This document shows positions 5,318 through 31,247 of a DNA stretch of 64,000 bases, in pieces. How positions within the stretch are numbered: the stretch's first letter is position 1; each line of letters starts with the position of its first letter. The notes under the pieces are model-generated. The model was not told the origin of the DNA. It searched no databases and was given only the letters and a program-made list of their open reading frames with translations. The stretch is from Paenibacillus sp. RC334 (GTDB taxonomy: Bacteria > Bacillota > Bacilli > Paenibacillales > Paenibacillaceae), in the NCBI RefSeq assembly GCF_030034735.1, contig NZ_CP125370.1, positions 2,418,001-2,482,000 of the forward strand, in the 5' to 3' direction. Both the position numbers and the translations under genes were made by a program.

Positions 5318-5448
5318 AGCCTCTTTTTTTTGGAAGAAGAAAGGAGTACGCAAAGGCGATAACGAATAGCTTTATATAGTTAAAATGAATGTTAACGGAG
5401 TATTATCGCGACGTCTCTGAGGAAACAAAAACCTGGAGGGGGAATGTT

Positions 5449-8199
5449 ATGAGGTTCACGCATCTGGAAAAAGCGACAACTGTGCTGTTGGATCATCCGG
5501 TTCGTCTGACGTCTGCTTATGCAGTCGGTCCGGTCAAGCTGCCGGAAAATTGCGGTGTGGGTAGGGCATGGTCCGATCATTTTACCCCTGAGGAATGGGA
5601 TTTGGAAAGGGCCTGTAATGAAGAAGGACTGGAGCTTTCGGCTGGAGGAAAGGCAGCGTGCCGCTTATTAACTGAGCTGGACCCCCGGAACGCGGAATTG
5701 AATTTAGGTGTCTTTCCGCCCCTGACTGAGCAAGAAAGGCTTTTGCTGGTTTCGAATCTCCGCTGCGCGGCAGCACAGGAAGTTATTTTCAGACCGTTTG
5801 AAGGAACAGGACAAATTTGGGTGGACGGCATATTGGTATATGCGGAATCCGGTCCTTTGCGCTTGTATCTGGACGAAGGTAATCATACGGTGGTGGTCGT
5901 TGCAGCCTTTATTCCCGATGAAGCTCGCTCTATTCGGATCAGTGGAACTCAGACGTGTGACAGCGCAGATGTCGCGGAGCTGCATCAGGAATTCGTAGAG
6001 CGCAATATACGTTTTCATATGGCATGGCTGGAGGTGGAGAAACCCGCTGGCAGGGAGGGAGAAGACAGTCCGGTCTTGTTTTATTTGCTGCGCAAGGATC
6101 GCATAGATCTTCCTGTAGATCAGCCGTTATGGGTCGAGGTAACGAATGATGAGGGAACATTGCTGGACCGGTTTCAGGCGGTTTGGGAGCAGGAGCAGCA
6201 ATATGCCTGGAATGAGGAAGTTGCCGGGAATACGGGAATGCTGCATTTTACGGTTACATATCAGGACCATGAGGCAAGAGAGCATTATTTTGTGTACTCG
6301 ATGCTTGTGCGGCCTTTGTCGGCGGTTGTGGAGGGTTTGCAAGAAGAGTACGACCAATATAATCAAGCTTATAATACAGATGCTTTTGGCTCTGCGAGGA
6401 AATTACAGGCAGAAGGCTTGCTGGCTGAGCTGAAAAGGTTAACGGCTTTGCCGGAAGATCCTTTTGAAATCTGGGATAATCGCATTGTGCGGGAATATAT
6501 CAAGCTACTAAAACGAATTTTCACACATGCGTACACGGAACGGCCTCAGCATCCATCTCGGGAAGATAACATCCTTTTGTGCCCTGACGGGATTGGCGAA
6601 GGCTTTTTTGTCTCCCGTTTGGACAACAGTCTGCAACGCTACACGATACAGCTTCCCCGAAACTATTCGGCGGATCGGCAGTATCCTCTCATTGTCCTGA
6701 TGCCGGGCAAACGGTATGAGCTGGGTCTGCCGGATTTTCAGAAACGGGGCTTTGGACAGGGCTGGGAAGAGGAAGCGATATTCGTCACTTTTTCGTGCCG
6801 TGGAGTTACGCTGGGCAGTTACATTGGTGAAGCCGCTTTTCTGGAGGCGCTGGATGCTATTCTGCAAGCGTACCGGGTGGATGAAGACCGAATCTATCTG
6901 ACGGGCTATTCTAACGGCGCATACGCTGCCTGGGCGATGGCACAGGCTTATCCTTCGCGTTTTGCGGCTATTGCCGTCATTGCTGGCGCACCGCATCCGA
7001 AGCATCTGATGAACCTGCTGAATATGCCCATATTCAATGTGGTTGGAGATCAGGATTACTTGTTTGCGCAAGCTTATACGGCTCCTGAAACCGACCTTTC
7101 ATCCGACCATTATAAAGGAGTAGTGGAACGGTGTGCCAACCATTGGGACACGCATGAACTGAGGCTTTTGGACGGTGTACTGAGTTGGCTTATGCAATGG
7201 AAGAGAGTGATGGTACCTCAGCGTATTGCCTACCGAACGGAGCGGGGGAGACATAACCGGGCTTATTGGCTGGAATTGACGCAAGTGGATGAAACCGAGG
7301 AATACTCCGAACTGTACGGTGAAATGAGCAAAACGGGTGAACTGGATGTTAGAGCCGTCCACGTCGATGAATTTATTATTCACCTCTCACATGAGATCGT
7401 ACCATTGGAGCTTGTCCATGTCCGTATTGGAGCGCGGGTTTTCGTGTTGGATTTACTAGAATATAACCGCTTTCGCTTTGTTAAAATAGAGTCGCGGAAA
7501 CGCCCCTCACCTGAATATCGATTGATTGCTGAACGGTGGAGCGAAACAGATGGAATTTCTGGAAAAGAAACGGATGACGAAACAGCAAGGTTCAGGTTAA
7601 AAAGCGCAGGTCGGAATCCTTCTGGCCATGGTATGGGAGTGCTGGACGTTTATATGGATCGTCTGCATATTGTCCTTCCATCCAGCTATGCTACACCCGA
7701 AGAAGAGCAGGCGGTAAAACGGACGGCAAAGGCTTTGGCCAGCCCTCGCACAGCGACCTGGAATCCGTATATCGGTGTTCATTACCCTGTTGTGGCTTCT
7801 CATGAGATTTCCGAGGAAGAACTGGCTGACAGTAACGTGATCTGTATCACCTCAGGCTTGTCCAGACATGAGCTGCTTCAGCGCCATCAAGCCCATTTAC
7901 AGATCAGCTGTACGGAAAAAGGGTATGTACTGGGCGGTGATTTCACGGCAGGCGAGTATTGTCTTTCGTATATCCAGCCTGCCCCGTGGTCCACACGCAA
8001 ACAAATGCTTGTTGTGGCGACGAATTCTCCCCGGATGCTAGGTAAAAACCTGTTTATGCGCAAGCTGATTATGCCCGGCTATTTTAACGGTCTGCATCCG
8101 TATTTGAATAAAGAGGTTATTGTGTATGACAGCAAGGGTGTGCGTGCTTTCAATTTTACTTCTAATAAATATGCGTTCCACAAGCTGCAAGGTCAATAA
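5449..8199 (+). CDS. Large alpha/beta-hydrolase (esterase-like) protein
   Basis: This is a 916-residue protein with no signal peptide. The ATG at 5449 is used because GGAGGGGG precedes it; an upstream ATG at 5389 has no such site. Residues about 1-180 look beta-rich and may form carbohydrate-binding-like modules. Residues about 400-580 form an alpha/beta-hydrolase domain of the polyhydroxybutyrate depolymerase / feruloyl esterase type. It has TIQLPRNYSADRQYPLIVL at its start and GYSNGAYAAW as the nucleophile elbow (Ser near residue 486). The candidate acid is in VVGDQDY, and the His is not securely placed. The last 330 residues match nothing I recognise. The gene stands alone and its substrate is unknown. 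The 936-residue alternative start is less likely. Confidence 0.7.
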   Translation: MRFTHLEKATTVLLDHPVRLTSAYAVGPVKLPENCGVGRAWSDHFTPEEWDLERACNEEGLELSAGGKAACRLLTELDPRNAELNLGVFPPLTEQERLLLVSNLRCAAAQEVIFRPFEGTGQIWVDGILVYAESGPLRLYLDEGNHTVVVVAAFIPDEARSIRISGTQTCDSADVAELHQEFVERNIRFHMAWLEVEKPAGREGEDSPVLFYLLRKDRIDLPVDQPLWVEVTNDEGTLLDRFQAVWEQEQQYAWNEEVAGNTGMLHFTVTYQDHEAREHYFVYSMLVRPLSAVVEGLQEEYDQYNQAYNTDAFGSARKLQAEGLLAELKRLTALPEDPFEIWDNRIVREYIKLLKRIFTHAYTERPQHPSREDNILLCPDGIGEGFFVSRLDNSLQRYTIQLPRNYSADRQYPLIVLMPGKRYELGLPDFQKRGFGQGWEEEAIFVTFSCRGVTLGSYIGEAAFLEALDAILQAYRVDEDRIYLTGYSNGAYAAWAMAQAYPSRFAAIAVIAGAPHPKHLMNLLNMPIFNVVGDQDYLFAQAYTAPETDLSSDHYKGVVERCANHWDTHELRLLDGVLSWLMQWKRVMVPQRIAYRTERGRHNRAYWLELTQVDETEEYSELYGEMSKTGELDVRAVHVDEFIIHLSHEIVPLELVHVRIGARVFVLDLLEYNRFRFVKIESRKRPSPEYRLIAERWSETDGISGKETDDETARFRLKSAGRNPSGHGMGVLDVYMDRLHIVLPSSYATPEEEQAVKRTAKALASPRTATWNPYIGVHYPVVASHEISEEELADSNVICITSGLSRHELLQRHQAHLQISCTEKGYVLGGDFTAGEYCLSYIQPAPWSTRKQMLVVATNSPRMLGKNLFMRKLIMPGYFNGLHPYLNKEVIVYDSKGVRAFNFTSNKYAFHKLQGQ

Positions 8200-8729: not shown

Positions 8730-9647
8730 TCAGTTTTTATACTGCTCCATCAGATATACGATCTTGACCTCATCGGCCAAATCGCCAAAGGGTTCATAAG
8801 GATTCTCCTGAATGATATGATATAAACGCTGAACTCGTTCCTTCGGCAGTTTGCGCACATATCTGGAAATAAAACCGGAGTGCGTGACCACGTAGCGCTT
8901 TTTACGGACAGCCGCACTGGCAACACGGACGAGAATATCCTCGCCTCCTGCCATTTCCAGAATGCGACGTTCATAAAAGGTCACGTAACGGAACGTCCGA
9001 TCCTTAATTAGCTCGCGATTTAATCTGGCAATCTCTCCGATATATCTGACCATAAGCGGTTCAAAGCTTTTGATCAGGAGAGGGTCGAGCGTTAGCTCCA
9101 TATCCTTGCGGAGTACAAAAGATTGCAGCAGGGCGACCTGCTGGAGCCTTATCCGGTCATTGTGGATGAGTACGGCAATCTCACGCAGCATTTCATAGGA
9201 GACACGCTCGCTGAGCTGTCGCAGGGCAACCGCGTTTTTATGATTGATGTTCAGGCCCTCTTTAATCTGCTCAATGCGGCCTCTGAACAGGCGTATAAGC
9301 TGCCTGCGCTGCTCATAGGGACGAATACGCTGCTGTAAAAGCACCAAGGGTAGCAGGAGAAGTGCGCCAACGATACCACACAGGAGCATTTGCTGGGTGG
9401 AATGGCCGAAAAAGACGGCGGCGGTCAGCAGCACGATGCCGAAGGCTAGGTCGTTGCGAAAATAAAGCTTGGCTCTGTGGTGGGCATATTGCTCTACAGG
9501 AACCAGTGCATCCCGACCGCAAGACGTACATTTATCTTCCCATAGGGCAGTAAACTGTCCGCAACGCTTGCAGATCCGCAGCTTTTGGTACGCATGCTCG
9601 GTGTGGATAAACGGACGAAATTGTACAGGCTGTTTGGCACTACTCAT
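8730..9647 (-). CDS. Zinc-ribbon membrane protein beside the tubulin/GTPase operon
   Basis: This protein has about 305 residues. Residues 26-43 hold a Cys-x2-Cys-x10-Cys-x2-Cys zinc ribbon, followed by two membrane segments (about 67-83 and 86-104, ending in PLVLLQQRIRPYEQRR). The remaining 200 residues are basic, helical and probably cytoplasmic. The ATG at 9647 overlaps the stop of the upstream small gene; a GTG at 9656 is the alternative. I recognise no family. The zinc ribbon echoes the one in the GTPase at 19731, and the gene is transcribed away from that operon from a shared control region. A place in the same system is therefore plausible but not shown. Confidence 0.6.
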   Translation of the reverse strand: MSSAKQPVQFRPFIHTEHAYQKLRICKRCGQFTALWEDKCTSCGRDALVPVEQYAHHRAKLYFRNDLAFGIVLLTAAVFFGHSTQQMLLCGIVGALLLLPLVLLQQRIRPYEQRRQLIRLFRGRIEQIKEGLNINHKNAVALRQLSERVSYEMLREIAVLIHNDRIRLQQVALLQSFVLRKDMELTLDPLLIKSFEPLMVRYIGEIARLNRELIKDRTFRYVTFYERRILEMAGGEDILVRVASAAVRKKRYVVTHSGFISRYVRKLPKERVQRLYHIIQENPYEPFGDLADEVKIVYLMEQYKN

Positions 9648-9792
9648 TGCGATCACTTCTCAGGTTCAGCAGGGCTAGAAGCTCAGTGTTCATTTGCGTA
9701 ATCGAGGGAGCGCGTTTTTTATGTATAGAGTAAGTGATTAATTTGATGGCGACAAAAAGAAACAAAATCGCCAAACATCCGTATGAGATCAT
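9640..9792 (-). CDS. Small single-span membrane protein
   Basis: This 50-residue protein starts MISYGCLAILFLFVAIKLIT, a single hydrophobic helix, and continues with a basic, then mixed, cytoplasmic tail. The ATG at 9792 is preceded by AGAGGAA at good spacing; a longer frame beginning at 9861 lacks a clear site. The gene overlaps the start of the 8730 zinc-ribbon gene, so the two are translated together. It resembles small assembly or anchoring subunits, but no family is recognised and it would be missed by most gene callers if only long ORFs were kept. Confidence 0.55.
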   Translation of the reverse strand: MISYGCLAILFLFVAIKLITYSIHKKRAPSITQMNTELLALLNLRSDRNE

Positions 9793-9913
9793 AGTGTACT
9801 TCCTCTTTCTGCTCAGATTTTTACAGCGATAATTTGCAAGAGCGGGTTTCGCTTCTGTCATTTTTGTCGTATAAAGGAGAAGGCTGGTGCCCGATTGCCC
9901 TTGTTGGGGTATA

Positions 9914-9954
9914 ATTATATCATTACTGCAGGATATTGGTAAAATCCCGCAGTA
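9914..9954. promoter_or_regulatory. Divergent control region: inverted repeat over a minus-strand promoter
   Basis: An 11-base inverted repeat with one mismatch (TACTGCAGGAT at 9924-9934, ATCCCGCAGTA at 9944-9954) overlaps a minus-strand promoter with TTACCA (9937-9942) and a perfect TATAAT (9914-9919), spaced by 17. A TATAAT also occurs on the plus strand at 9953-9958 and another at 10024-10029, but neither has a good -35 box. The rest of 9793-10092 holds no gene. It may bind a regulator shared by the two divergent units. Confidence 0.5.
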
Positions 9955-10092
9955 TAATAGGCTTCTTGGCTGTAATCAGGCTATTCGGGCATCATTTTCA
10001 GCTGGCTCTCATGTAAAACTCATTATAATTTAATAGTAGGGGAGTACAACTGTAATTTAGAATGAGAACTAACCGGCAAAGGGGTACAAGCG

Positions 10093-11898
10093 ATGTATAG
10101 TAGAGACAGAAAATGGTTTTTAGTCATCGGAATCATATGTGCAATGATCATGACCTCAATTTCGGCATGGCAGCCGCAGACGGCGAATGCCGCTTCAACC
10201 TCCGCCTCCAAGGTGGATGCGGTGCTGGTTGTCGATGTGAGTAATTCCATGAATACCAGTGATCCAGGCAAAATTGGCAATGAAGCCATGAAAATGTTCA
10301 TTGATATGCTGTCGACGCAAAATGACAAGGTCGGCATTGTAGCGTATACGGATGTCGTACAGCGCGAGAAGGCTTTGCTTAATATTACGTCCGAAGCGGA
10401 CAAGCAGGAACTGAAGTCGTTCATTGACGGGCTGAACCGGGGGGCGTATACTGACACCTCCGTAGGTGTCAAGGAAGCGATCCGCATTTTGCAGGATGGC
10501 AAGACAGCGGGACACGCGCCTATGATCGTCATGCTGGCCGATGGTAACAACGATTTAAATAAAACGACGGGCAGAACTGAAAGCCAATCCGATCAGGATA
10601 TGGCGAAGGCTGTGGCCGAAGCTAAAAATAGTGGCGTTCCCATCTACACCATCGGTTTGAATGCAGATGGAAAACTGAATAAAAACAAGCTCGCAGACAT
10701 TGCGCAGCAAACGGGCGGTAAATCTTTTATTACAAGCTCGGCGGATGACCTGCCGAACATCTTGAGTGAAATTTTCGCCAGCAATTTGAAGCTGAAGGTT
10801 GTTCCCTTGCAGTCCATTACGGCTAACGGCAACTATCAGGACGTTACGGTAACTGTACCGAACGATAGCGTGCTGGAGGCTAACATTTCGATTATGTCCT
10901 CCAAGCCGGTGGATGCGAGACTGATAGACCCGTCGGGCAACACCAAGCCGATTCCTTCAAGTGATGTACTGCTGTCCAAGTCGAAAAGCTACTCCCTGAT
11001 TAAGTTGCTCAAGCCTGTGGCTGGCGACTGGAAGCTCCAGGTCAAGGGAGTCCAGCAGGATCAGATTGATATTAATCTGGTGTTTAACTATGATTTGGAA
11101 CTGAAACTGGACGCACCGCCTGCCAAAGCTTACAAAAAAGGTGACGCAGTCCAAATTCGTTCCTACCTGACGAGTAACAACCAGCAGCTTCAGGATCAGG
11201 AACTGTATGCAAATATGAATGCAGTTTTGAAGGTCAAGGACCTTGATTCCGGTACAACGAATGAGGTTCCATTGAAGAATGAGGGGGACGCCTTTACCGG
11301 CTCCTACACGATACCGGATGAGCATGACTATGAACTGACCGTTAGAGCAGAGGAAAAGAGCTTCTACCGTGAAACCCAGCCTGTGACCATCAGTGCCAAG
11401 GCTGCGGCGGGCAGTGGCACGAATAACGGTACTACTACGGCGCCGGCAGCACCTGCCGAGAAGTCCAAACTGCTACCCCTCATTCTGTTGGGGCTGGGAC
11501 TGATCGTTCTGCTGATTGCAGCCTACTTTATCTGGAAGGCTGTCAAAAAAGCCAACCGCGGCTTTGTCGGACAAATCGTTTTGGAGATTCGGGACGAGAA
11601 TACCGGCGAAAAAACGTATCCGCAATACAAGAAGCTGAACACCTTCCGGGGTAAATTCAATCTGCACCAGTTGCTGCAACTGGCACCGGAATTTGCCGAA
11701 ACCGATAAGGTGGTGTTCACGCCAGGCAATCAGGACCGTATCATGGTGCGCAGCACTCCGGAGATTGCGATTGAAAAATCCGGACGCGCTGTAGATACAG
11801 GCAGTGGTCTTGAACTGAAAAACGGCGATCGCCTGACGATTCCGCTGGCAAGCGTGGACAAAACCATTTTGCTGGAATTCATTTCAGTAAACAGCTAA
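10093..11898 (+). CDS. Exported vWA-domain membrane protein, first gene of the tubulin/GTPase operon
   Basis: This is a 601-residue protein. Residues 1-33 form a signal peptide ending TANA. A von Willebrand factor A domain follows (about 42-240), with an intact metal-ion site VVDVSNSMNTSD (Asp48, Ser50, Ser52). Next come a beta-rich extracytoplasmic part (about 250-440), a Thr/Ala/Pro linker, one membrane helix (about 458-482) and a 115-residue cytoplasmic tail. The vWA domain therefore faces outside and the tail could contact the cytoplasmic GTPases encoded downstream. It is 24 bases before the tubulin-like gene. vWA domains bind proteins in a metal-dependent way; the ligand is unknown. The start is preceded by AAAGGGG. 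Confidence 0.8.
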   Translation: MYSRDRKWFLVIGIICAMIMTSISAWQPQTANAASTSASKVDAVLVVDVSNSMNTSDPGKIGNEAMKMFIDMLSTQNDKVGIVAYTDVVQREKALLNITSEADKQELKSFIDGLNRGAYTDTSVGVKEAIRILQDGKTAGHAPMIVMLADGNNDLNKTTGRTESQSDQDMAKAVAEAKNSGVPIYTIGLNADGKLNKNKLADIAQQTGGKSFITSSADDLPNILSEIFASNLKLKVVPLQSITANGNYQDVTVTVPNDSVLEANISIMSSKPVDARLIDPSGNTKPIPSSDVLLSKSKSYSLIKLLKPVAGDWKLQVKGVQQDQIDINLVFNYDLELKLDAPPAKAYKKGDAVQIRSYLTSNNQQLQDQELYANMNAVLKVKDLDSGTTNEVPLKNEGDAFTGSYTIPDEHDYELTVRAEEKSFYRETQPVTISAKAAAGSGTNNGTTTAPAAPAEKSKLLPLILLGLGLIVLLIAAYFIWKAVKKANRGFVGQIVLEIRDENTGEKTYPQYKKLNTFRGKFNLHQLLQLAPEFAETDKVVFTPGNQDRIMVRSTPEIAIEKSGRAVDTGSGLELKNGDRLTIPLASVDKTILLEFISVNS

Positions 11899-11922
11899 AC
11901 GAACCCTTAGGAGGTCAAATCT

Positions 11923-14900
11923 ATGAAACCAGTAGTTAGAGAGCATATCCAGCAATTAGACGTATCACTCGGCGGAGGGATCGTAAGCGATAAAATCAGG
12001 GTTGATACCATTGATAATCCCATTTTGATTATCGGACTCGGAGGGACGGGTATTGATGCCCTCCTCCGCTTGAAATATCAAATTAACCGCAGATTCAAGC
12101 TGCCAGCAGATCCGGTTTCCAAGAAAAAGAGCGAGAAGCCGGACAACGTGGAATTTCTCGCTTTTGAAACGAATGAGCAGGATCGCAACAAAAAATATAA
12201 AGGGATCGGCTTGGACCCAATCAACGAGTTTGTACTGCTGTCCAATGCGGAAATCGGCGGATTGCTGCAAAACCGCAGCATTTTGGAGCCGTACATTACG
12301 GATTGGCTGTCACCCGAGCTGAGCATTACCGATGGCATGAACGGGGCGGCAGGGGTGCGTCAGGCTGGACGTTTGCTGCTGTTCACCAAAATCAATCAAG
12401 TCGTGCAAAGCATTGACAAGAAAATCAAAACCCTGTCTGAAGGCACCAATAAGAAGCTGATGGTGTTCCTGCTGTCCGGTTTGTCCGGCGGTACGGGGAG
12501 CGGCACCTTCCTCGATATCTCGTATATCGTCAGAGGGATTATTGAGCGCGATTACGGCTCCGCAGGTGTAGACCGTGTAAATACATTAGGATATCTGTTT
12601 ACGCCGGACATTAACCTGGCGAACAAAAGCCTGAGCGAGCATACACGCGAATATATTAAAAAGAACGGCTATGCCGCGCTCAAAGAGCTGGACTACTGGA
12701 TGAATGTGGACAGCCGCAGTGAACGGTTCAAACAGCAGTATGGCAACATTTTGACCGTGAATTCACCGTTGCCGCCGTTTAATCTGTGTCATCTCATTTC
12801 AGCGACGAATACAGAAGGCAAGCTGCTGGAAAATGCCTATGATTACTGCATGAATGTCACCGCCGAGAACATCACCAACTTTATGGCGAGCGAGGAAAAG
12901 CAGTCAGGCGAAGAGTTTGCCATTCATGACTATATCAGCAACATTCGTACCAATATTGCACAAATGAACAAGGCATATCCTGCCAACTACGATTACAATA
13001 TTATCGGGGCTTCCTCGGCGGTACTGCCAATGGAGGAAATGACAACATATCTGGCTTACCGGATGTTCGGCAAAATGTCCAAAATGTTCGAGCAATCACC
13101 GAATCAAGAGGATGTCGAGAAGTTTGCCCGCAAGCTGGGCGTCGATCTGGACAGCATGATCAAAAACTTCGAATCTCGTGTTCCTGAACCGCTGCCGGGC
13201 TTTGAAAACAGTGAACGATTAAGCTACAACAATGTAGTCAAAATGCAAGTTGTGAATATGGATACCGAGCTGGAGCAGACCTTCCTGACACGTGCGCGTG
13301 AGGAATATATCAAGGCGAAGAAGCAGCTTCCGGGTGAAATTACGGGGCAGTTTACCGACCAAATCCGTCGGATGTTCCTGCATCCCGAGCAAGGTCCGTT
13401 TTATGTATCCCGTATGATTTATACGGAAAAAGGCTTTAGCTTGCTGAAAATGCTGCTTTCGTACATTGAGACGCTGCGTGAATCACTGCATCGTATCCCT
13501 ACGGATATTGAATGGGCGCGTGAGCAGGCGGGCGAAAAGCTGGGCGATGCCAAGAGCGCGTTCGTGTCCAAGGATAAAAAGAAAAATGCGTACATTGAAG
13601 CGAAAATCAATGAATACTGGCTTCGGGCCGATGTGGAGCGTACAGAGCAGCTTATTGAATTTTATGAAGACCTGTATGATCTGCTGAATAAGGAAAACAG
13701 CCGCATTTATAATGTATTTACTGAAATTTTGAATGCACTGAGCGCGATTTTCGAGAAGAATGGCGATCTGCTGATCAACGGCGAAGAACAGTCCGATCAC
13801 AGAGGCAACAAAACGTACTATTGGAATCTGGTCAGCGTGCCGGATATTTCCGAAGTCGTAACCAAGCTGCTGGATAAGCGTGATGGTGATGATCTGATTC
13901 GTGATTTTGCCCAAGAGTTGCTGGAAAATTCGGATCAATGGGTGAAGGATCAGGATATCGACATCATTAGTTCCATCTCCAACTTCCTGACCGACAAGTT
14001 CGGTGATCTGATTACCCGTTCGATGGAGGATTTCCTCGTGATGAAATACGGGCAGGATGAGGCCATTGAAAAATTCGTGGAGCGCTATATTGCAAGCAAG
14101 CTGGATGAAGAAGCTGTGCCTGTGTTCCATCTGAGCAATAGCTCCGGTAACCTGTATTTCCCGTCATGGGGTTTTGTCTCAGTTCCGGTGCAGTCGCCTA
14201 ATATTCTGAAAGGCGTTCGCAATTATCAAAATAATGCCATTGGTAAATCACACTTTACCATTAAAGAGAGTGAAGTCCGTAACCGGATTTTCTGGCTCAA
14301 TACGCGCAATGGTGTGCCGTTGTTTGTTTATACGCCGCTCAAGGTGTATGAAGAAAGCTATGAAAAAACGATTCTCGACCGGGAAGGTATTGGCCGCCAT
14401 CTGGTGCAAACAGGCCAGAATAACTGGACGAATTTGCCGTCACCGATTCCTGAAAAATCGTGGGGAGAAACGTATGTCAATTCGCGTGTACAAGCTTACA
14501 ATGCCCGCATCCGTAACGACTTCGACCGTGCCAAGTCACTTGGCGTGATCCGTGAGAAGGATGTTGACCAGAATACGAGCAGCCGCTTTACTGTGCTGCG
14601 TTCACGTGCGCTGGATCTGAATGGCCTGCTGGCAGGCTACGATATGCGTTTGCAAGAATCCAAGCCGAATCTGGGTGAGGTGAAGAGAGCGTGGTCTGAG
14701 CTGAAACGCCTGCTGGCTGAAGGGCTGGAACAGACGGGAAGCAAGGACATCTTTGGCAGCATCAATGAAGAGATGGCGAAGGAAAACCTGATTCGTTCAC
14801 CGGAGTTAACGCAGGTGGTTCGTGAAGAACTGGCGAAATATACCCAAATTGAAGCGAAGGCCGCCGAGCTGGAAGCCTTGCTGGGCAAATATCAGGATGA

Positions 14901-15312
14901 GGAAAAATGGCTGGATCAGTTCATTCAGGCACTCTATACCGACACGATTACGAAGAAAGGCGCTTTATACGTCTATGACCGTGACGAAGAGGAAGAGGCT
15001 TGGGAGCCATTTGCCAATGTCATGAAGAGTCGTAATTACGTGGAGTTTGAAGTGTTTACGAATTTCCGTGGTCTGGAAGAGAAAAAATATGCAGCTCTGA
15101 TGCGTAAGGCGGATCGCCGTGATGCTGTACTGACTTCGTCCGAGGATATTACGCCGCTCTTGGCGAAGCTGGATGAACTGGCTGGAATCTACTTGGAAGC
15201 CCGGAATCAATTGGAATATGAAAAGGTGGAGCTGGCTAACGGAGCGGAGCTCTATGCGTTCTACGCTCAAATGTCCGGGAAACTAAACGATATCCGTAGA
15301 AAGTTGAAGTAA
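11923..15312 (+). CDS. Large tubulin-like (Tubulin_2-type) GTPase
   Basis: This 1129-residue cytoplasmic protein has a tubulin/FtsZ-type nucleotide-binding N-terminal third. ILIIGLGGTGIDALLRLK lies near residue 30, and the tubulin signature in LSGLSGGTGSGTFLDISY is near residue 185 (GGTGSG being the G-box). The remaining 700 residues are mostly charged and helical, with coiled-coil-like stretches near 880-960. This matches the Pfam family described as tubulin-like (Tubulin_2), whose members are much longer than FtsZ and poorly studied. AGGAGG precedes the ATG. Its neighbours are two vWA proteins, a P-loop GTPase and a GAP1-like protein. Nucleotide-dependent polymerisation is suggested by family only. 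No truncation is seen. Confidence 0.82.
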   Translation: MKPVVREHIQQLDVSLGGGIVSDKIRVDTIDNPILIIGLGGTGIDALLRLKYQINRRFKLPADPVSKKKSEKPDNVEFLAFETNEQDRNKKYKGIGLDPINEFVLLSNAEIGGLLQNRSILEPYITDWLSPELSITDGMNGAAGVRQAGRLLLFTKINQVVQSIDKKIKTLSEGTNKKLMVFLLSGLSGGTGSGTFLDISYIVRGIIERDYGSAGVDRVNTLGYLFTPDINLANKSLSEHTREYIKKNGYAALKELDYWMNVDSRSERFKQQYGNILTVNSPLPPFNLCHLISATNTEGKLLENAYDYCMNVTAENITNFMASEEKQSGEEFAIHDYISNIRTNIAQMNKAYPANYDYNIIGASSAVLPMEEMTTYLAYRMFGKMSKMFEQSPNQEDVEKFARKLGVDLDSMIKNFESRVPEPLPGFENSERLSYNNVVKMQVVNMDTELEQTFLTRAREEYIKAKKQLPGEITGQFTDQIRRMFLHPEQGPFYVSRMIYTEKGFSLLKMLLSYIETLRESLHRIPTDIEWAREQAGEKLGDAKSAFVSKDKKKNAYIEAKINEYWLRADVERTEQLIEFYEDLYDLLNKENSRIYNVFTEILNALSAIFEKNGDLLINGEEQSDHRGNKTYYWNLVSVPDISEVVTKLLDKRDGDDLIRDFAQELLENSDQWVKDQDIDIISSISNFLTDKFGDLITRSMEDFLVMKYGQDEAIEKFVERYIASKLDEEAVPVFHLSNSSGNLYFPSWGFVSVPVQSPNILKGVRNYQNNAIGKSHFTIKESEVRNRIFWLNTRNGVPLFVYTPLKVYEESYEKTILDREGIGRHLVQTGQNNWTNLPSPIPEKSWGETYVNSRVQAYNARIRNDFDRAKSLGVIREKDVDQNTSSRFTVLRSRALDLNGLLAGYDMRLQESKPNLGEVKRAWSELKRLLAEGLEQTGSKDIFGSINEEMAKENLIRSPELTQVVREELAKYTQIEAKAAELEALLGKYQDEEKWLDQFIQALYTDTITKKGALYVYDRDEEEEAWEPFANVMKSRNYVEFEVFTNFRGLEEKKYAALMRKADRRDAVLTSSEDITPLLAKLDELAGIYLEARNQLEYEKVELANGAELYAFYAQMSGKLNDIRRKLK

Positions 15313-15315
15313 AGT

Positions 15316-17682
15316 ATGAGAGAGCAGTTGTTACGTTATGCGGCTGACTATGCAGCCGCAGAGGATCAATTCATCGGTAGCGGGGATGGACGCAGCAGCA
15401 TCCATTTCCCGTCCGTGTTTCTTTTTATCGGTGACCGTATGGGTCCGGCAATCAACACGATTGCAGATATCAACCGGACCAAGTGGGATAACAGTACGGG
15501 GGTAACGTACATTCACATCCGGTCGCAGGAGGATCATGCAACTGTAGATCGTCCGGTGGGTGCCATTGTCCATGCGGTAGCAGTACCGGAGGAAAGTAGC
15601 CACAAAACCGGACGACGTGATTTGCATCAGGCTTTTTATACACATGAATCGCAGTTGATTGAGCTTAACACCGCGTTGCGCCGGGCTAGTGGGAACTTGG
15701 CGGATTACGGTCGTTTGTATTCCTCGTTCGAGCGTGTCCATTTGTCGATCCTGACGACAGCCGACGATCCCATGAATGTATTGGTTCCCGAGATTACGCT
15801 GTTGGCGGAATACATTTTTGCGCAGTCCTTTAAGTCGGTACAGATGGATCTGTACGTATTGGTCAGCGAAAGCGATCAGACAGCCCAATTTGGCTATAGC
15901 AGCGCAGCATCAGTTGCTTTTATGAGAGAACTGGACTATATCCAAAGTCCGGATTATACGTTCACGGCGCCACTGCATATGACTGAGGACAAACTGACCA
16001 TTCCAGTATCTCATGCTCCGTCGCCGTTGTTCGATCTCGTCTATGTGCTGTCCGACAAGAACGAACGCGGTGTAACGGTGCCGAATAGCCTGCGAGAGAG
16101 CTGTGACATCATTTGCCATATTCAGCTTCTCAAAAACCGTTATCAGGCGGAAGATTCCTATCGTTCACAGGATGGGGGGTATAACAATACGTCGTTTAAA
16201 AACAACATTATGACGGAATCCGGGCGGCAGGGCTATGTGTCGGCTGGATTTTCCCGGGTCAAGCGCCCTAATGAGTCGATTGCGCTTACGGTGCTGCATC
16301 ACTTTTATGTGAAACTGCTGGCGCGTATGAGAATAGAGCAGGAATGGGATATACGCGATAAGCTGGATTATTTCGGTTTGGATGCTGCCGAGCGCAGCCG
16401 TACACGAAATGACCTCGTTCCTGGTAATGAGGCCATTATGGACATGAGCGCTTTAATGACCAGCGGAGCCAGCTACGGCTCGTTAAAGCGAATGACACTG
16501 CGCGAGGCGGAGGAAGCCTTGTTCGGACAGGGCTGTGAAGCCTTTTTCCGCGATAATTGTGAACGGATCGTACACAAACGGTTGGGGGATTTTCAGGCGG
16601 AATTATGTCTGCAAACGGCTGTGAACGAATCGGTCAAGGAGCACCCCAAGATCGGTTTGTTCGAGCTTACGGACTGGACGGATGAGAATAAGACCGGGAA
16701 TGTGCTTACCGCCATTCGAGGACTGATTCGAGATACGTCCAATGACTTGCAGATCAGCGCTGCTGAGCTGGATGCCCTGTATAGTGGACGAGTGGAAGAC
16801 CAGCCCTTTCAACGATTGCCGCTGATGGATAAACATAATGTGCGCAGCTTGATCCGTTACCTGACCGAGACGGTCTATGGGCACAAGCTGAACATGCTGT
16901 GGATTCAAACGGATCTGGAGCTACTTCGCCGTTATGAGCTGGCTCTTGAAAAATGGCATATGCAGGCGAAGCATATTACCGTACAGCTTGCCAATCTGGA
17001 GCGTGATCTGCATCAGGCTGCAACGGACAGCGTCCGTCAGGCTGACAGCTATACAGGTCAAAACCTGTTTGAGTACTATGAGCGTGTGACGGAGGATGTC
17101 ATGCGTGAGCTGGAGACCAAGCGGGGGAAAGCTGTATTCTTTGATGCCCGGCATATGGGTCCTGTATCCGGTTTGCTGGATGGCGGTCCGTCAAAGCTGG
17201 TGGATCGACTCACACAGACTTGCCGCACTCTGATCCTTAGCGCACAGCCGTTTAACCAGACATTCGAGGAAGAATTGCTGCGGCGGGCGAATGTGGCTGC
17301 TGCCTATGAAAATCGGCTGGTCGTTCCGAAGGATGAGCTGTTTAAAAAACTGTACCAAAGGCTGGAGGAAAACGGCGGTATTAACGTACGTTTGCTGGAT
17401 TACACTCATGAGCATCGGTATGAGGAAAAATATTTCTTTGGTGACTACGAAGGCGAATTTCTTCCTTATGCGCTGGATGTGGATATTACCTCGCGCATTT
17501 ACAAGCTGGGGTTTGTGCATGAGCGTCGCAGCAGCGGGGTAGAAAAGCTTCATTTGATGGGTGGTTTCCATCTGGAGGATCTGATGGTCTACCGCAACGG
17601 CAAGACGTATTATGAGACATATATCGCGAATGGTTTCGTGTTTCACGGGATCAACGCGGATCGGCTGCCGGAACTGCGGTAG
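15316..17682 (+). CDS. Uncharacterised 788-residue partner of the tubulin-like protein
   Basis: I do not recognise this protein. It begins three bases after the tubulin-like gene, so it is almost certainly co-translated. It is soluble and has no signal peptide. Hydrophobic beta-strand-like stretches at about 30-42 (FPSVFLFIGDRMG), 135-160, 175-185 (MDLYVLVSES) and 240-255 (LFDLVYVLSDKN) alternate with helices in the manner of a Rossmann-type fold. There is no glycine-rich tubulin or P-loop motif. It may be a degenerate tubulin-like paralogue that pairs with the active one, as tubulin subunits do, but that is speculation. The C-terminal half is charged and helical. Confidence 0.6.
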   Translation: MREQLLRYAADYAAAEDQFIGSGDGRSSIHFPSVFLFIGDRMGPAINTIADINRTKWDNSTGVTYIHIRSQEDHATVDRPVGAIVHAVAVPEESSHKTGRRDLHQAFYTHESQLIELNTALRRASGNLADYGRLYSSFERVHLSILTTADDPMNVLVPEITLLAEYIFAQSFKSVQMDLYVLVSESDQTAQFGYSSAASVAFMRELDYIQSPDYTFTAPLHMTEDKLTIPVSHAPSPLFDLVYVLSDKNERGVTVPNSLRESCDIICHIQLLKNRYQAEDSYRSQDGGYNNTSFKNNIMTESGRQGYVSAGFSRVKRPNESIALTVLHHFYVKLLARMRIEQEWDIRDKLDYFGLDAAERSRTRNDLVPGNEAIMDMSALMTSGASYGSLKRMTLREAEEALFGQGCEAFFRDNCERIVHKRLGDFQAELCLQTAVNESVKEHPKIGLFELTDWTDENKTGNVLTAIRGLIRDTSNDLQISAAELDALYSGRVEDQPFQRLPLMDKHNVRSLIRYLTETVYGHKLNMLWIQTDLELLRRYELALEKWHMQAKHITVQLANLERDLHQAATDSVRQADSYTGQNLFEYYERVTEDVMRELETKRGKAVFFDARHMGPVSGLLDGGPSKLVDRLTQTCRTLILSAQPFNQTFEEELLRRANVAAAYENRLVVPKDELFKKLYQRLEENGGINVRLLDYTHEHRYEEKYFFGDYEGEFLPYALDVDITSRIYKLGFVHERRSSGVEKLHLMGGFHLEDLMVYRNGKTYYETYIANGFVFHGINADRLPELR

Positions 17683-17752
17683 CAACATGGTAATCCTACG
17701 AGGAATTTGCAAATTCCTCCTACTTTAATTATGGAAGGAAGCAACGATTCTT

Positions 17753-19042
17753 ATGAAGCAGCGTAAATTTAATGTTCTCCTGCTGCTGTTCGGCTTGCTG
17801 GGCGCCGTAGTGGGCTTCATCATTGGAGAGCTGATTCTTAACAAACTGATAGGCCACTGGCCGCATATCATCGTGATTGGGCTGTATTTTGGCATCATGG
17901 CGCTGTGTATTGGCCTGGGATGCCTTATCGGCGAATGGATTTCGCCACAACTGAACGGGCCGTCATGGCGGCAGCGGTACTCCGGGTTGTCCTGGAAGCT
18001 GCTGGTCCCTGCTACGCTGGTGATGCTGTTCGTGGCAGGGCTGCTGCTGGAGCTGGGCTACCAGGTAAACCCCGAAGGTCGCAAAAGTGTACAGGATCTC
18101 GTGCTCGTCATTGATAATTCCGGGAGTATGCAGCAAACAGATCCCGACAATGAACGTCTGACAGCCGCCAAGAGTCTAATTGGCCAAATGGATGGAGACA
18201 AGCGGGTAGCCATCGTTTCCTTTGAGTCCACTGCGCAGTTGGTTCAGCCGTTTACCCCGATTGGCACAGATGCGGAGAAGCAAGCCGTTTATGCCAAGAT
18301 CGACAGCATGCAGACCTTAATGACAGGCGGCACAGAAATCGGTCTTGCCTTGGATGAAACCATCAAAGAAATCGAAACTCAGGGTAATGCGGAAAAGGGC
18401 TCTCTCGTTATTATGCTGTCTGACGGCTTTAGTGATCTGGATAGCCAGACGGCATTGGCTCCTTATATCGCCCGGCAGATTCCGATTAATACAATCGGTC
18501 TGAAGCTCGCTGAATCCGATGGTATAGCATTATTGCAAAATATTGCCCAAATGACGGGTGGAACTTACTTCAATGTGGCGAATGCCCAAGGTCTTACTCA
18601 GGCGTTCGGTAAAATTTATGACAAAATCGGCGATCGTACTCTGGTAACGGAGCGAACAGGTGAGTATGCGGATAGTCTGTATTTTGCTATTTACCGTGTA
18701 ACCGCACTGGTGATTATTGGAGTACTGCTGGGATTGGCACTCGGACTGATGTTCGATAACCGTTTTCTGGCGCGGAATTTCGCGATTGGCGGGGTTCCTG
18801 CCGGATTGCTGGCTGGCTTTATTTTGGAAAAGGGCCTGTCCGGCTCGCCCATCGGTGATTTGATGATTCGTTTGGTGGCAGCGCTCGTATTGGCGGCTCT
18901 AATCGCGGTCTTCTCGCTTGTGCTGCCGATTGCGGAAAATACTCGCCGTTCTTCCGGCGGAGGAAACCCCGGTGTGTCATCAGGTCGCAGGACAAGAGCG
19001 CCGGAAGGCCCGCCGCGTAATCGACGCAGCAGTGGATTTTAG
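17753..19042 (+). CDS. Polytopic vWA-domain membrane protein
   Basis: This 429-residue protein has three N-terminal membrane segments (about 8-28, 38-60, 82-102). A vWA domain follows (about 115-300) with an intact metal site VIDNSGSMQQTD near residue 122. Three further membrane segments (about 318-340, 345-365, 370-395) and an Arg/Pro/Gly/Ser-rich tail complete it. The layout resembles BatA-like proteins, but the six-helix arrangement and its neighbours differ. It is the second vWA gene of the operon and follows the 788-residue gene by 70 bases. The AAGGAAG site is slightly distant from the ATG. The vWA domain lies between helices 3 and 4; which side it faces is unclear. Confidence 0.78.
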   Translation: MKQRKFNVLLLLFGLLGAVVGFIIGELILNKLIGHWPHIIVIGLYFGIMALCIGLGCLIGEWISPQLNGPSWRQRYSGLSWKLLVPATLVMLFVAGLLLELGYQVNPEGRKSVQDLVLVIDNSGSMQQTDPDNERLTAAKSLIGQMDGDKRVAIVSFESTAQLVQPFTPIGTDAEKQAVYAKIDSMQTLMTGGTEIGLALDETIKEIETQGNAEKGSLVIMLSDGFSDLDSQTALAPYIARQIPINTIGLKLAESDGIALLQNIAQMTGGTYFNVANAQGLTQAFGKIYDKIGDRTLVTERTGEYADSLYFAIYRVTALVIIGVLLGLALGLMFDNRFLARNFAIGGVPAGLLAGFILEKGLSGSPIGDLMIRLVAALVLAALIAVFSLVLPIAENTRRSSGGGNPGVSSGRRTRAPEGPPRNRRSSGF

Positions 19043-19060
19043 AACGGGAGGCTGGAACTT

Positions 19061-19714
19061 ATGCAGTATAGGGATGCACAGCCCGGTGATCCTGTTATTT
19101 CGGAGCTGAGCCACAAAATTGACGACAACCGGGTTGTGCTTCGCTGGCAGTGGCCGGAAGGAGTCGCCGTGGTATTTATTGCGAAACAATTAGCCGATCT
19201 GGGTGTGAACGGGCAGGAGGATGCCGAAGCGTTGCCGCCTTTTTCAAGCCTTAAGCTCTTCACACGTGAGGAGTACAAGGCTGCTGGCAGCTACCGTGAC
19301 CGGATCGATGGCATTGGACGCGTGCGGTATACCGTGTATCCGGCTGTGCGGGAGGACGGAGATACTTTTGTGATCCGTCAGCAGGATGGAGCTAATCGGC
19401 TGGAATTGAGCACGGGTAAAGCTAAAATCAGATATGCGGTCCACCACAAAAAAGGCTGGTTTCGCAGCCGCAAAACGGTGCAGATTCAGGTGACGGCTGA
19501 AGTTCCTGTTCCGCAGGAGGCGCTTTGCTATGTGAAAAAGCGTGGTGGCTATCCGGCGGATCGGGAGGACGGAACCTTGTACCCGTTCACGGCACCATTT
19601 CCTGCGGGACGGAATGTGTTGCCCGCTGTGGAAGTGGGCGGAGATGAATATGTGCGGCTGTTTTTTACGGACGGCCAGAAATATGGCACGGTATATGAAT
19701 TAGTCCCTGAATGA
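19061..19714 (+). CDS. Beta-rich hypothetical protein of the tubulin/GTPase operon
   Basis: This is a 217-residue soluble protein of unrecognised family. It shows alternating short hydrophobic and polar stretches, for example NRVVLRWQWPEGVAVVFIAK near residue 23 and KTVQIQVTAEVPVP near residue 140, as in beta-sandwich or immunoglobulin-like folds. There is no signal peptide or membrane helix. It lies 18 bases after the second vWA gene and 16 before the GTPase gene, with a GGGAGG site before the ATG. This position and size would suit an adaptor between the vWA protein and the GTPase; that is inference only. Confidence 0.6.
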   Translation: MQYRDAQPGDPVISELSHKIDDNRVVLRWQWPEGVAVVFIAKQLADLGVNGQEDAEALPPFSSLKLFTREEYKAAGSYRDRIDGIGRVRYTVYPAVREDGDTFVIRQQDGANRLELSTGKAKIRYAVHHKKGWFRSRKTVQIQVTAEVPVPQEALCYVKKRGGYPADREDGTLYPFTAPFPAGRNVLPAVEVGGDEYVRLFFTDGQKYGTVYELVPE

Positions 19715-19730
19715 AAGGAGGCCGCAACCG

Positions 19731-20996
19731 ATGAGTTTTCTTAGCAATTTATTCAGAAGAAAGCCGCAGGCAGCACCAAGGCCGTTATTTTATGATATTG
19801 TGTGCCCTTATTGCTTTAGTAAGTTTTCCCCGGAGGAAGTTGTATTCCGTGCTTCCCATCACCGTGAGGATGACGAGGATTACGCTTTGGGTGAGGATGA
19901 GCTGCTGAACAAATACCGGGAGCGCTTTGGTTTGGACGGTGTGCATGATATGGAGGCCATTCTTCATCCCCTTGATGTTCCTGAGGAACACCGTTTGTAC
20001 TCGGATCATGTACTGACAGGTCTGACGGATCGCTATGGTGAGCTAACACGTCGCAGATTGTGTCCGCATTGCCATAACGAGCTGCCTGTGACCGCAGGCA
20101 AGGTGCCGAGTAATATCATTTCGATTATTGGAGCTTCACAGGCAGGGAAATCCGTCTATATGACCTCCCTGATTCACACGTTGCAGCATGTTACGGCCGA
20201 TCATTTTGATGCGGCTTGCATGCCGTTGAATGCGGAGATCAGCCGCAAGTTCCGTACGATGTATGAGGAACCGCTGTTTGAGCGAGGGGATCTGCTGACC
20301 TCTACACAGAAAGAAAAGATGCAGGAGCCTTTTATCTTCCAGTTTGTGTTTAAGGATGAGGAAAAGCCGCCACTGACGCTGGTGTTTTTTGATGTCGCCG
20401 GTGAGGGGATGGTCGATCAGGACTATCTGGGTCTGCACGGACAGCATATTAAAAACTCGGCGGGTATTTTGTTTATGGTTGATCCGCTGCAAATCCGCTC
20501 TATTCGGGAGCGTATCAAGATCAACATCGGCGACAAGCCGGGCGAGTTTGTTTCGCAATATGATGAGCCGCGTGATGTCGTACTTACGATGTTCGGTGAT
20601 TTTATCGCATATCAGGAAAAAGGGAAGACGGACATTCCAACCGCCATTGTCCTGACCAAAAGCGACATGCTCACTGCGCTGGCAGATGAAGAAGGCACGT
20701 ACATCAAGACGAACAGCAATATTTTTAATCCAATGGAGCACCGGAAGTATATGGATTTGGATGAGTTCGCGAACATTGATGGCGAAGTGCGACGGTTCAT
20801 TGAAAAGGTGGATAAGCCGTTCAAGGGCACGATGGATGTGTATTTTACAGACACGGCCTATTTTGCGGTTTCCGCCTTGGGCAGCAATCCAGTAGATCAA
20901 AAGCTGCAAGGGCTGGTTAGTCCGATCCGTGTGGATGAGCCCTTCATTTGGCTGCTTTACAAGCTGAAGTACATTGAGGGGAGAGAATCACAGTGA
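19731..20996 (+). CDS. Zinc-ribbon P-loop GTPase (double-GTPase-like)
   Basis: This 421-residue soluble protein begins with a split zinc ribbon (CPYC near residue 25, CPHC near residue 111), followed by a TRAFAC-type GTPase domain. The Walker A box is IIGASQAGKSVYMTSL (near 131-146), the switch II / Walker B box is FFDVAGEGM near residue 219, and the guanine-specificity box is TKSD near residue 309. The zinc-ribbon-plus-GTPase arrangement matches the GTPases encoded beside GAP1-domain proteins in bacteria. AAAGGAGG precedes the ATG at 19731. The stop overlaps the GTG of the next gene, the presumed GTPase-activator-like partner, so the two are probably made in equal amounts. No membrane segment is present. 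Confidence 0.82.
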   Translation: MSFLSNLFRRKPQAAPRPLFYDIVCPYCFSKFSPEEVVFRASHHREDDEDYALGEDELLNKYRERFGLDGVHDMEAILHPLDVPEEHRLYSDHVLTGLTDRYGELTRRRLCPHCHNELPVTAGKVPSNIISIIGASQAGKSVYMTSLIHTLQHVTADHFDAACMPLNAEISRKFRTMYEEPLFERGDLLTSTQKEKMQEPFIFQFVFKDEEKPPLTLVFFDVAGEGMVDQDYLGLHGQHIKNSAGILFMVDPLQIRSIRERIKINIGDKPGEFVSQYDEPRDVVLTMFGDFIAYQEKGKTDIPTAIVLTKSDMLTALADEEGTYIKTNSNIFNPMEHRKYMDLDEFANIDGEVRRFIEKVDKPFKGTMDVYFTDTAYFAVSALGSNPVDQKLQGLVSPIRVDEPFIWLLYKLKYIEGRESQ

Positions 20997-23900
20997 GTAA
21001 TTCTACCTCTCATTTGATACAGCAGCAGATGTATACACGGGAACGGCGTGGTATTTTCCGTTCAACGGAAGGCTTCGATACGGTAGCCAATTCCAAGGGG
21101 CTGGACACTTCTTTTATTAAAAAGGTGCTGCATCCCTTGTGTGTGTATGATGCTCCTGCTGCTTTAACAGCGCGTGGTGAGAAGCAGGAGAGCGTCTACC
21201 CGGAAGCCATGCATCTGGTACGGACGGAGTCAGGGGATGTGGTGCTGGGACGCAGTATCTACAAGGCAGCGGATTTTACCGGGCTGCGGAGCGCCTTTTT
21301 TACGCATAATTATGTGATTCCAGCCGGGCATGGTGAATCTCCGTCTGATTATAAGCAGTGGCTGAACACAACTTTTGTCGATGCTTATGATATTGAGCAA
21401 GGAACGGAATTGCCGGAATTGGAGCGTCTGCCGGGTGGGAGCGTATTTCCATCTGTTGACCCGTCTGCGGTGCTGTCTCAATTGCAGCTCGGTGAAGAAA
21501 TGTTCAAGCAGATTTTATACGCAGTCATGATGTCGGCTACTGGCCGTAAAAAGATATATATAGCACTGAACGTTCCAGTAGAAGCGGTGGCATCTTCAGC
21601 CAAGCTGCTGCTGGGTGTGTTGTATGCGGCGCTGCCTTATGCATTTCGCAACAGGCTCGGATTTCTTACATATGCGAAGGAGCCACACAGCAGAAAAGGC
21701 ATTCATTTGATGTTTGTTGAGCCTTTCAGTTTGCGTCCCGGTGATCGGAATGTGGAAAAGGATTTTGTATTTGACCTGACTAACAGTGGTCGGGTACTCA
21801 ATGTGGATGCAGAGCAGGTGAGACAGCCGTATTTTGACTGGATTGCCCATACGTTGCTGACTGGCGGGACGCCGGATGATTTTTTCAAATTTGCCGAGCA
21901 AATGCTGACTGGCATGGAGGCCGGGCGCGATCTTGCGCTATCCAGCTATCACGAGCTAATTACACTGTACAGAATAGAGCAGGGAGAGCGCGGGCTATAT
22001 AACGAACGGCGAATTTCCGTGCTGAGAAGCTTGACCGACTATTTATCTTCTCCCGATGCGTTGCCACGTAAAATGCGGCTGAATGACTTGTTTCTGTCGT
22101 TTTTTGATCATGAATTTGATCGGGTGAAGGATGGATATATTCCTGACGTGGGTCTGATCGACTGCTTCAAGGATTACTATAAAGTTCACGCGCGTAGCAG
22201 CGAGAATCGGTTGGTGGAATATTTGATCCGCTCGCTAAATAACGCCTATACCGCAAGAAATACGGAAGCTGTCACTTATATTTATCATACGATTGAAGAA
22301 AATCCTTCATTGGGCAAGTCGTATTTTACGAAGGTGCTGGGTAATCCGGCGCTCACGAAGCTGCTGTTTATTCCCTACATGGATAGCCAGATGAAAAGAA
22401 CACCGGATGTGAAGGGGTTGCTGGCTGTCGTGTATGAATGGGGCAGTCGATATATTGAAGTATCGGCGAATGCCGATTTTCAGCTTTTGGCTGAGTCCGC
22501 ATTGATGGGCAAACTGCGTGCTGAAAGAAAGCCGGTAGAGGCTGTGGCTGCTATTCATCAACGGTTGCAACAATGGGAAAGTAGTTCTACGGGGGGCCAA
22601 CTTTCTCCACTGGAGCAATCCGGGTTAACGGAACGCTTGCAAGAAGCGTCGGATCGGTATTTGCTTACGGAAGTGGAGCTAAAGGAAATCTCACCTGATC
22701 AGGTCGTACAGATTCCGTTCTTTACCCGTCCTGATTTGGTGCAGTGGGTCGGGAAACTGCCAGCCCCGCTCAAGGGACAAGCGGTGCGCTTGATTGCAGC
22801 TTACGATTGGTTTAGCACGGAGAACCCGGAACCGTCAGTGCTGGAGGGTCTGGAGCCGGGCGAAGTGGAAAAGGTGCAGGACTGGGCTTACAGTTGGCTG
22901 CCCCAGCAGCTTGCGGAGGGCCATTTTGCCCGTCTGCTGCCTGCCTTCTATCGTTCCGATGGCACGGGCGAAGGAATACTGGATTTTGCTCGTCTGGTTA
23001 GCTCGATTCGCAAATGGGCGAAGGATAACGATACGATGTACCGTTTTATCCGCTGGTCGGAGGGACATGCCGAATTTGCTACGCCACGGGGCGGTTTTGA
23101 ACCAGCCTACCGACGTGCGTTGCTTTTGTTCTTCCAGAAGGAAGGACGCGAAGGGCTGCATAAAAAAACGCTGTGGCGTGAATATTTTGAGCCTGCCAAG
23201 CCTGTCTTTAAAAATTTCTATATGACAGCAAGGCGTGAGACGGATACACCTTTAGTCAAAACGCTTCGTCGCTTCCGCAAGGGTGGGGTGATTTCCGGGA
23301 TCGTGCTTGTCGTCATTGCAGGCACGCTAGGTGGCCTGAAAGCAGCGGGGGTAATCGGCTCGGAAGCCACGCCAGCACCTGTCACTACACCCAAGCCAGT
23401 GCAGCCGCCTGTAGTGGAGCCTACAGTACCCGTAAAGGAAGAGCCTACGGCGATTGTGACTCATGTGCCCAACACCAAGGCGACTACGAAAATGGTCAAG
23501 CTGCTGTTTGCTTTTCAAACATCGGCGGAGCAGGCGGCGTTTAAGCCTAAAAAGCTCGTCATTGTCGGTGCGGATCAAAAGGAGTATTCATACGAAAATT
23601 TTACGCTTGCTGAACAGAACGACAAGGAAGCAGCCAGTAAAGCTAACACTGGTCAGTCCGGTGACGCGAAAACCGGCAGTGCCACTACAGGAAGCACGCC
23701 AGCAGGGAGGGCTACTGGCTCAACGGTTGGTGGGGGTACATCCAGCAGAAACAGCGCTGATCAGGCCGGAACGGTGACAGGCCAATCGGGCGCAGGCACG
23801 ACATCGGGGACTCCTACAGGTGGGAGCGGCACAGCAACCGATGGAACCGGAACCGACACTGACGCGCCAACCGAGTATGACCTGAAGCAGTATCCTTATC

Positions 23901-24004
23901 GCTCACTGCTGACCATTTGGCAACGACTGGAGCTAGACGATGCTAGTACAGTTACGGTGGGTGGAGAAGAGTACCCGCTGGTTCAAGTGAAAACCGCTGA
24001 CTAA
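20993..24004 (+). CDS. GAP1-N2-like membrane protein, partner of the GTPase
   Basis: This 1003-residue protein starts at a GTG overlapping the GTPase stop by four bases, with GAGGGGAGAG upstream. The N-terminal 250 residues, beginning QQQMYTRERRGIFRSTEGFD, resemble the GAP1-N2 domain of GTPase-associated proteins. The middle 500 residues are helical. One membrane helix (about 767-788, GIVLVVIAGTLGGLKAAG) follows. After it come a Pro/Val/Thr-rich linker, a long Gly/Ser/Thr-rich low-complexity segment (about 880-960) and a short folded end. The N-terminus is thus cytoplasmic and the C-terminal part outside, as in the first vWA protein. The GAP activity is inferred from family names, not demonstrated. 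Confidence 0.75.
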   Translation: MSNSTSHLIQQQMYTRERRGIFRSTEGFDTVANSKGLDTSFIKKVLHPLCVYDAPAALTARGEKQESVYPEAMHLVRTESGDVVLGRSIYKAADFTGLRSAFFTHNYVIPAGHGESPSDYKQWLNTTFVDAYDIEQGTELPELERLPGGSVFPSVDPSAVLSQLQLGEEMFKQILYAVMMSATGRKKIYIALNVPVEAVASSAKLLLGVLYAALPYAFRNRLGFLTYAKEPHSRKGIHLMFVEPFSLRPGDRNVEKDFVFDLTNSGRVLNVDAEQVRQPYFDWIAHTLLTGGTPDDFFKFAEQMLTGMEAGRDLALSSYHELITLYRIEQGERGLYNERRISVLRSLTDYLSSPDALPRKMRLNDLFLSFFDHEFDRVKDGYIPDVGLIDCFKDYYKVHARSSENRLVEYLIRSLNNAYTARNTEAVTYIYHTIEENPSLGKSYFTKVLGNPALTKLLFIPYMDSQMKRTPDVKGLLAVVYEWGSRYIEVSANADFQLLAESALMGKLRAERKPVEAVAAIHQRLQQWESSSTGGQLSPLEQSGLTERLQEASDRYLLTEVELKEISPDQVVQIPFFTRPDLVQWVGKLPAPLKGQAVRLIAAYDWFSTENPEPSVLEGLEPGEVEKVQDWAYSWLPQQLAEGHFARLLPAFYRSDGTGEGILDFARLVSSIRKWAKDNDTMYRFIRWSEGHAEFATPRGGFEPAYRRALLLFFQKEGREGLHKKTLWREYFEPAKPVFKNFYMTARRETDTPLVKTLRRFRKGGVISGIVLVVIAGTLGGLKAAGVIGSEATPAPVTTPKPVQPPVVEPTVPVKEEPTAIVTHVPNTKATTKMVKLLFAFQTSAEQAAFKPKKLVIVGADQKEYSYENFTLAEQNDKEAASKANTGQSGDAKTGSATTGSTPAGRATGSTVGGGTSSRNSADQAGTVTGQSGAGTTSGTPTGGSGTATDGTGTDTDAPTEYDLKQYPYRSLLTIWQRLELDDASTVTVGGEEYPLVQVKTAD

Positions 24005-29045: not shown

Positions 29046-29066
29046 CATTATTCCTCCTTGTTAGGG

Positions 29067-30044: not shown

Positions 30045-30052
30045 GTTCGTAT

Positions 30053-31054: not shown

Positions 31055-31169
31055 TCCACGGCTCCTTGGAAATAAGGGTTCTTATCTACATCCTATGCGT
31101 GTAATGGGACAAACATGCCCGCTGGTAGCGTCTGGAGTACTCCTTTATGGACAAGTTCAAGCGTGGTCA

Positions 31170-31199
31170 TCTATATAATTGTGTTCTTTAATTGGACAA
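31170..31199 (-). promoter_or_regulatory. Probable promoter of the ycgRQ-like unit
   Basis: On the minus strand TTGTCC (31194-31199) and TATAGA (31170-31175) are 18 bases apart. The Zur box lies 14 bases upstream of the -35 element. Confidence 0.45.
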
Positions 31200-31212
31200 T
31201 GTGACTGTGTTA

Positions 31213-31231: not shown

Positions 31232-31247
31232 AAACTTCAACAAACGA

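Follow-up and report, generated by a model that had tools for sequence, protein, structure and literature searches.

We followed up a nine-gene set in Paenibacillus sp. RC334 (GCF_030034735.1), lying within a window of 64,000 nucleotides (contig NZ_CP125370.1, positions 2,418,001 to 2,482,000, forward strand) whose own numbering is used below. All nine genes that a preliminary description had placed at 8730–24004 were confirmed, seven on the plus strand and two divergent. In order, the plus-strand genes encode a vWA protein, V1 (10093–11898); a tubulin-like GTPase, T1 (11923–15312); a second tubulin-like protein, T2 (15316–17682); a second vWA protein, V2 (17753–19042); a tandem fibronectin-type-III-like (FN3-like) protein, F (19061–19714); a zinc-ribbon DO-GTPase, G (19731–20996); and a GAP1 protein, P (20993–24004), whose gene overlaps that of G by 4 bases. 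This set is the Bacillota form of an already described GAP1-N2/DO-GTPase/tubulin system, and we ask below what such a system may do for the cell.

The two tubulin-like proteins differ in their GTP sites. T1 (1129 residues), already recognised as tubulin-like from its sequence, matches the Pfam family Tubulin_2 with an E value of 8e-76, and its glycine-rich GTP loop, GGTGSG, is found in 30 of 30 genomes. T2 (788 residues), which the preliminary description left unnamed along with F, matches the same family below the cut-off (E 1.8e-4, 21.4 bits against 27), and its tubulin identity comes from its fold, for which CetZ2 and TubZ are among the best Foldseek matches, together with weak profile matches. 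The T4 loop of T2, at about residues 147–154, lacks the glycines of that motif, and a scripted search of all 30 T2 proteins failed to find a GGTG-like string. T2 is a second tubulin-like protein whose GTP loops have been lost; the GTP sites of T1 and G are intact. FtsZ, TubZ, and CetZ belong to the same tubulin superfamily, but they are much shorter than T1 and T2, and they differ from T2 in its missing GTP loops.

The GTPase, the 1003-residue protein, and the vWA proteins all fall into the families first suggested for them. G (421 residues) matches DO-GTPase2 (E 7e-8, 32.9 bits against a cut-off of 27) and has both the N-terminal zinc ribbon and the conserved glutamate near Walker B by which DO-GTPases are recognised; its P-loop GxxxxGKS, its DxAGEG and KxD motifs, and the cysteines 25, 28, 111, and 114 are invariant across 30 of 30 genomes, the two cysteine pairs making one zinc ribbon. 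P exceeds the Pfam cut-offs for GAP1-N2 (E 4.4e-46) and GAP1-M (E 1.3e-27), and has one transmembrane helix followed by a variable C-terminal part predicted to lie outside; no C-terminal GAP1 model was matched at E values up to 1 in Pfam, where the existence of such a model was not checked. The vWA domains of V1 (601 residues, E 2.6e-16) and V2 (429 residues, E 1.1e-19) keep their metal sites: the residues checked in V1 are identical in 30 of 30 genomes, as are three of those in V2, the other two being found in 29 of 30, with a gap in one genome. V1 consists of a signal peptide, an extracytoplasmic vWA domain, a beta-rich region, one transmembrane helix, and a cytoplasmic tail, and was oriented by manual reading of its sequence; YtkA was unmatched in it at E values up to 1 in Pfam. 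V2 has five or six transmembrane helices by hydropathy, with its vWA domain predicted outside from charged residues judged by eye rather than by a trained predictor. The membrane topology proposed earlier, in which two of the proteins have both an extracytoplasmic and a cytoplasmic part, is borne out, and the outside-to-inside signalling role suggested on that basis is plausible as an inference. F (217 residues), predicted to be cytoplasmic, has no Pfam match and was assigned as tandem FN3-like.

Upstream of V1, on the minus strand, lie the two divergent genes. One (8730–9656) encodes a zinc-ribbon and transmembrane protein in which three of the four cysteines are kept in 28 of 29 sequences (with one gap) and the fourth in 27 of 29. 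Its 101 listed homologues are annotated as hypothetical or zinc-ribbon proteins, and those listed with an organism name are from Paenibacillus or Paenibacillaceae. The other (9640–9792) encodes a 50-residue membrane peptide, S, and overlaps the start of the zinc-ribbon gene. Between the divergent genes and V1 is a 39-base block (9907–9945, assigned to no strand) that overlaps promoter-like hexamers facing both directions. A scan for such hexamers did no better than shuffles overall (19 observed, 17.1 expected); we base the block on its conservation. It is conserved within the window's clade and, if up to 15 of its 39 positions may differ, is recognised in 54 of 130 loci and not in the other 76; one shuffle of each gap gave 16 or more mismatches. 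With such a shared control region, the two divergent genes would be expressed in step with the operon.

Systems of this kind have been described from comparative genomics. Kaur et al. (Kaur, Burroughs, Iyer, and Aravind, eLife 2020, PMC7159879) predicted GAP1-N2/DO-GTPase conflict systems, and section 29 of that paper outlines Bacillota neighbourhoods with two tubulin-domain proteins, two vWA proteins, of which one is polytopic with its vWA domain outside, a DO-GTPase with zinc ribbons, and a GAP1 protein with a polar C-terminal extension, all of which recur here. An FN3 component belongs to GAP1-N2 systems more generally, and F, with its tandem FN3-like repeats, supplies one here. In the Bacillota tubulin theme one vWA protein is fused to YtkA. 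There are also differences. The DO-GTPase usually has two zinc ribbons in that account and one was seen in G, and the text of section 29 names neither the divergent zinc-ribbon protein, the 50-residue peptide, and an accessory gene that we call U, nor the loss of GTP loops in T2, although the figures and tables may show some of these. Makarova and Koonin (2010, PMC2875224) described the tubulin family FtsZl1 beside vWA proteins and a distinct GTPase, as here, and proposed membrane remodelling; Brevibacillus brevis is in their alignment, and their lineage-specific families A1–A2 and B1–B9 may include some parts of the Paenibacillus set. Protein kinases are frequent in those systems and OmpA-like proteins occur in several genomes, whereas Pfam found neither in the eight large proteins here. 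A 2023 analysis (PMC9871819) counts Tubulin_2 among the divergent FtsZ-like proteins. We considered CmoA, a different Paenibacillus vWA protein (PMC5072692), as an experimental precedent and rejected it, as it combines a signal peptide and one vWA domain with eight IPT/TIG domains. In line with the preliminary description, which knew of none, no experiments on Bacillota GAP1-N2 or FtsZl1 systems appeared among the top results listed in searches of a literature collection that includes few subscription papers.

The conflict reading of Kaur et al. was carried into the preliminary description as a proposal of GTPase-dependent conflict or signalling. Under this reading, which is unlikely although it is the strongest of the alternatives, F, the GAP1 protein, or the vWA proteins would sense an invader, the DO-GTPase would act as a switch, and tubulin assembly would be the effector. 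That the set belongs to the GAP1-N2 systems, with the arguments made for these in print, speaks for it. However, its hallmark, the exchange of variable components, was sought and not found in this group, which is why we favour it less. Where PMC7159879 stresses variability, the Bacillota loci examined are fixed except for gene U. Among 118 distinct loci, picked by similarity to T1 or GAP1, 116 keep the complete set of eight large genes in one order, while the remaining two are cut short. Gene U, present in 57 of the 118, is the sole component that comes and goes, which fits a conflict system. Neither outcome named in the preliminary description as refuting it occurred: the profile searches matched the families, and the neighbourhood survey found the genes together. 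The gene order is repeated in three GTDB families (f1, f130, and f140), which excludes chance.

The distribution in the genus also argues against a conflict system. GAP1-N2 and Tubulin_2 are each found in 66 of 75 genomes, and these are the same genomes; the nine without them are G009, G014, G024, G031, G032, G039, G045, G048, and G065. FtsZ trees from protein and nucleotide sequences covered 74 of the 75 genomes, plus seven outgroups, with G005 omitted as its FtsZ reading is broken. Eight of the nine system-less genomes form one clade (support 0.964 in the protein tree, 1.0 in the nucleotide tree), with G014 apart. In the protein tree, 65 system-bearing genomes form one clade (0.972) with no gap in presence; the nucleotide tree is less resolved, placing G014 beside G074 (0.618), and does not recover these 65 as a clade. 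Such a pattern would follow from one or two losses, or from a gain in the ancestor that the 65 share. At the level of the family, 95 of 197 genomes (10 of 19 genera) have GAP1-N2, as do 33 of 250 in the class (21 in f1, 11 in f140, and 1 in f130). In the phylum sample of 299, it occurs in eight genomes (one under the family cut-off) and Tubulin_2 in 11 (two under it): both in five, all from f1, GAP1-N2 alone in three, and Tubulin_2 alone in six. A scan found 287 relatives of T1; of the best 80, 77 carry the label Paenibacillus and three the label Bacillus sp. Separately, weak FtsZ-like frames, roughly 360–470 residues long, were seen in G458, G703, G008, G045, G006, G023, G016, G057, G066, and G071, and are perhaps of TubZ type; G703 also has a second full-length FtsZ, which 8% contamination may explain.

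One comparison speaks against simple vertical descent. The versions of the system in the two halves of the genus differ almost as much as those of other genera (in the comparison between lineages, RpoB and FtsZ were trimmed at the N terminus), and signs of whole-set transfer between lineages would suit a conflict system. The window's clade and loci L104–L111 carry two rather different versions, with different flanks, in one genus. The flanking genes differ among clades and recur inside each clade: around the window's clade they are a gene at 5389–8199 upstream and MarR and MFS genes downstream (14, 13, and 14 loci); elsewhere they are a DEAD-box helicase or an ABC-type ATPase named by eye (20 loci each), an ABC1 kinase or a sulfate permease (14 loci each), or a spore germination gene (4 loci). 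The half of the genus with the other version has other flanks too. These are ordinary genes. In the defence collection PADLOC, only two of ten flanking proteins were matched, the DEAD-box helicase and the ABC1 kinase, and these look like superfamily matches; among the eight large proteins there was no match below E 0.04, the presence of GAP1 models in PADLOC being unchecked. In addition, searches of the plasmid and phage collections gave no match to T1. The ratio of nonsynonymous to synonymous substitution (dN/dS), from ten relatives for the operon genes, nine for MarR, and seven for MFS, is 0.095 for P overall, close to the 0.112 of the neighbouring MarR gene; the outer part of P is the least conserved long stretch (0.235), which speaks for the conflict reading. 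The earlier proposal does exist in print, in precise form; its conflict half is not supported by the fixed composition, the near-universal presence in the genus, the strong purifying selection, the flanks, or the collections searched. The pattern fits a stable trait, with any transfer between lineages having involved the whole set.

We favour instead a tubulin-type scaffold that is anchored in the membrane at the cell envelope and controlled by GTP, a reading to which we give a probability of about one half from sequence. The vWA domains predicted outside in V1 and V2, with the outer tail of P, would recognise a target in the wall or on an adjacent cell. Binding would be relayed through the cytoplasmic tail of V1 and through P to the DO-GTPase, whose state would govern assembly of T1 near the membrane. 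T2 would be a partner of T1 incapable of binding GTP, and F and the zinc-ribbon membrane protein would serve as adaptors or anchors. The outcome may be local remodelling of the envelope or organisation of cell contacts. A bolder version, which we consider rather improbable, is that a Bacillota tubulin pair with one member permanently nucleotide-free forms a regulated membrane-anchored polymer, in which a zinc-ribbon GTPase switch reads outer metal-dependent adhesion-type domains, as a bacterial counterpart of the integrin-to-cytoskeleton link that is stable in the genus.

Alternatively, the tubulins may not polymerise at all, and T1 may be a GTP-dependent allosteric subunit that sits with T2, as structural partner, in a fixed signalling complex acting on gene expression or enzyme activity. 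T1 is exactly 1129 residues long in 102 of 116 distinct loci, as in a tightly fitted complex, and the T6–H7 elements were not confidently placed by Makarova and Koonin (PMC2875224), who still deemed filaments of a novel mechanism likelier than none. Profile searches, however, found no DNA-binding or enzymatic output domain at cut-off in the eight large proteins, the GTPases themselves excepted, and we regard this alternative as quite unlikely. It is very unlikely that the set has no general role in the envelope and serves swarming Paenibacillus as a developmental or contact module, for surface growth or for kin recognition: GAP1-N2 systems are reported to be enriched in multicellular organisms (PMC7159879) and CmoA is required for colony movement (PMC5072692), but the architecture of CmoA differs and a regulatory link was not found.

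Elsewhere in the window, a siderophore-type cluster at 43781–54725 comprises an aminotransferase, an MFS protein, three IucA/IucC synthetases, an HpcH/HpaI aldolase, and a PLP decarboxylase, and presumably resembles staphyloferrin-B-type gene sets. At 27939–38114, two CobW-type proteins (one by Pfam, one by eye) lie near an ABC-3 metal transporter, in what is probably a zinc-supply locus.

Systems of this kind have so far been filed as conflict systems on comparative grounds alone. If the set is instead a conserved envelope scaffold, a whole branch of tubulins in Bacillota serves the cell in a way yet to be characterised, and Paenibacillus would offer a fixed set of nine genes for finding out how. 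The GTP-dead T2 permits a direct biochemical question, namely whether it co-assembles with T1.
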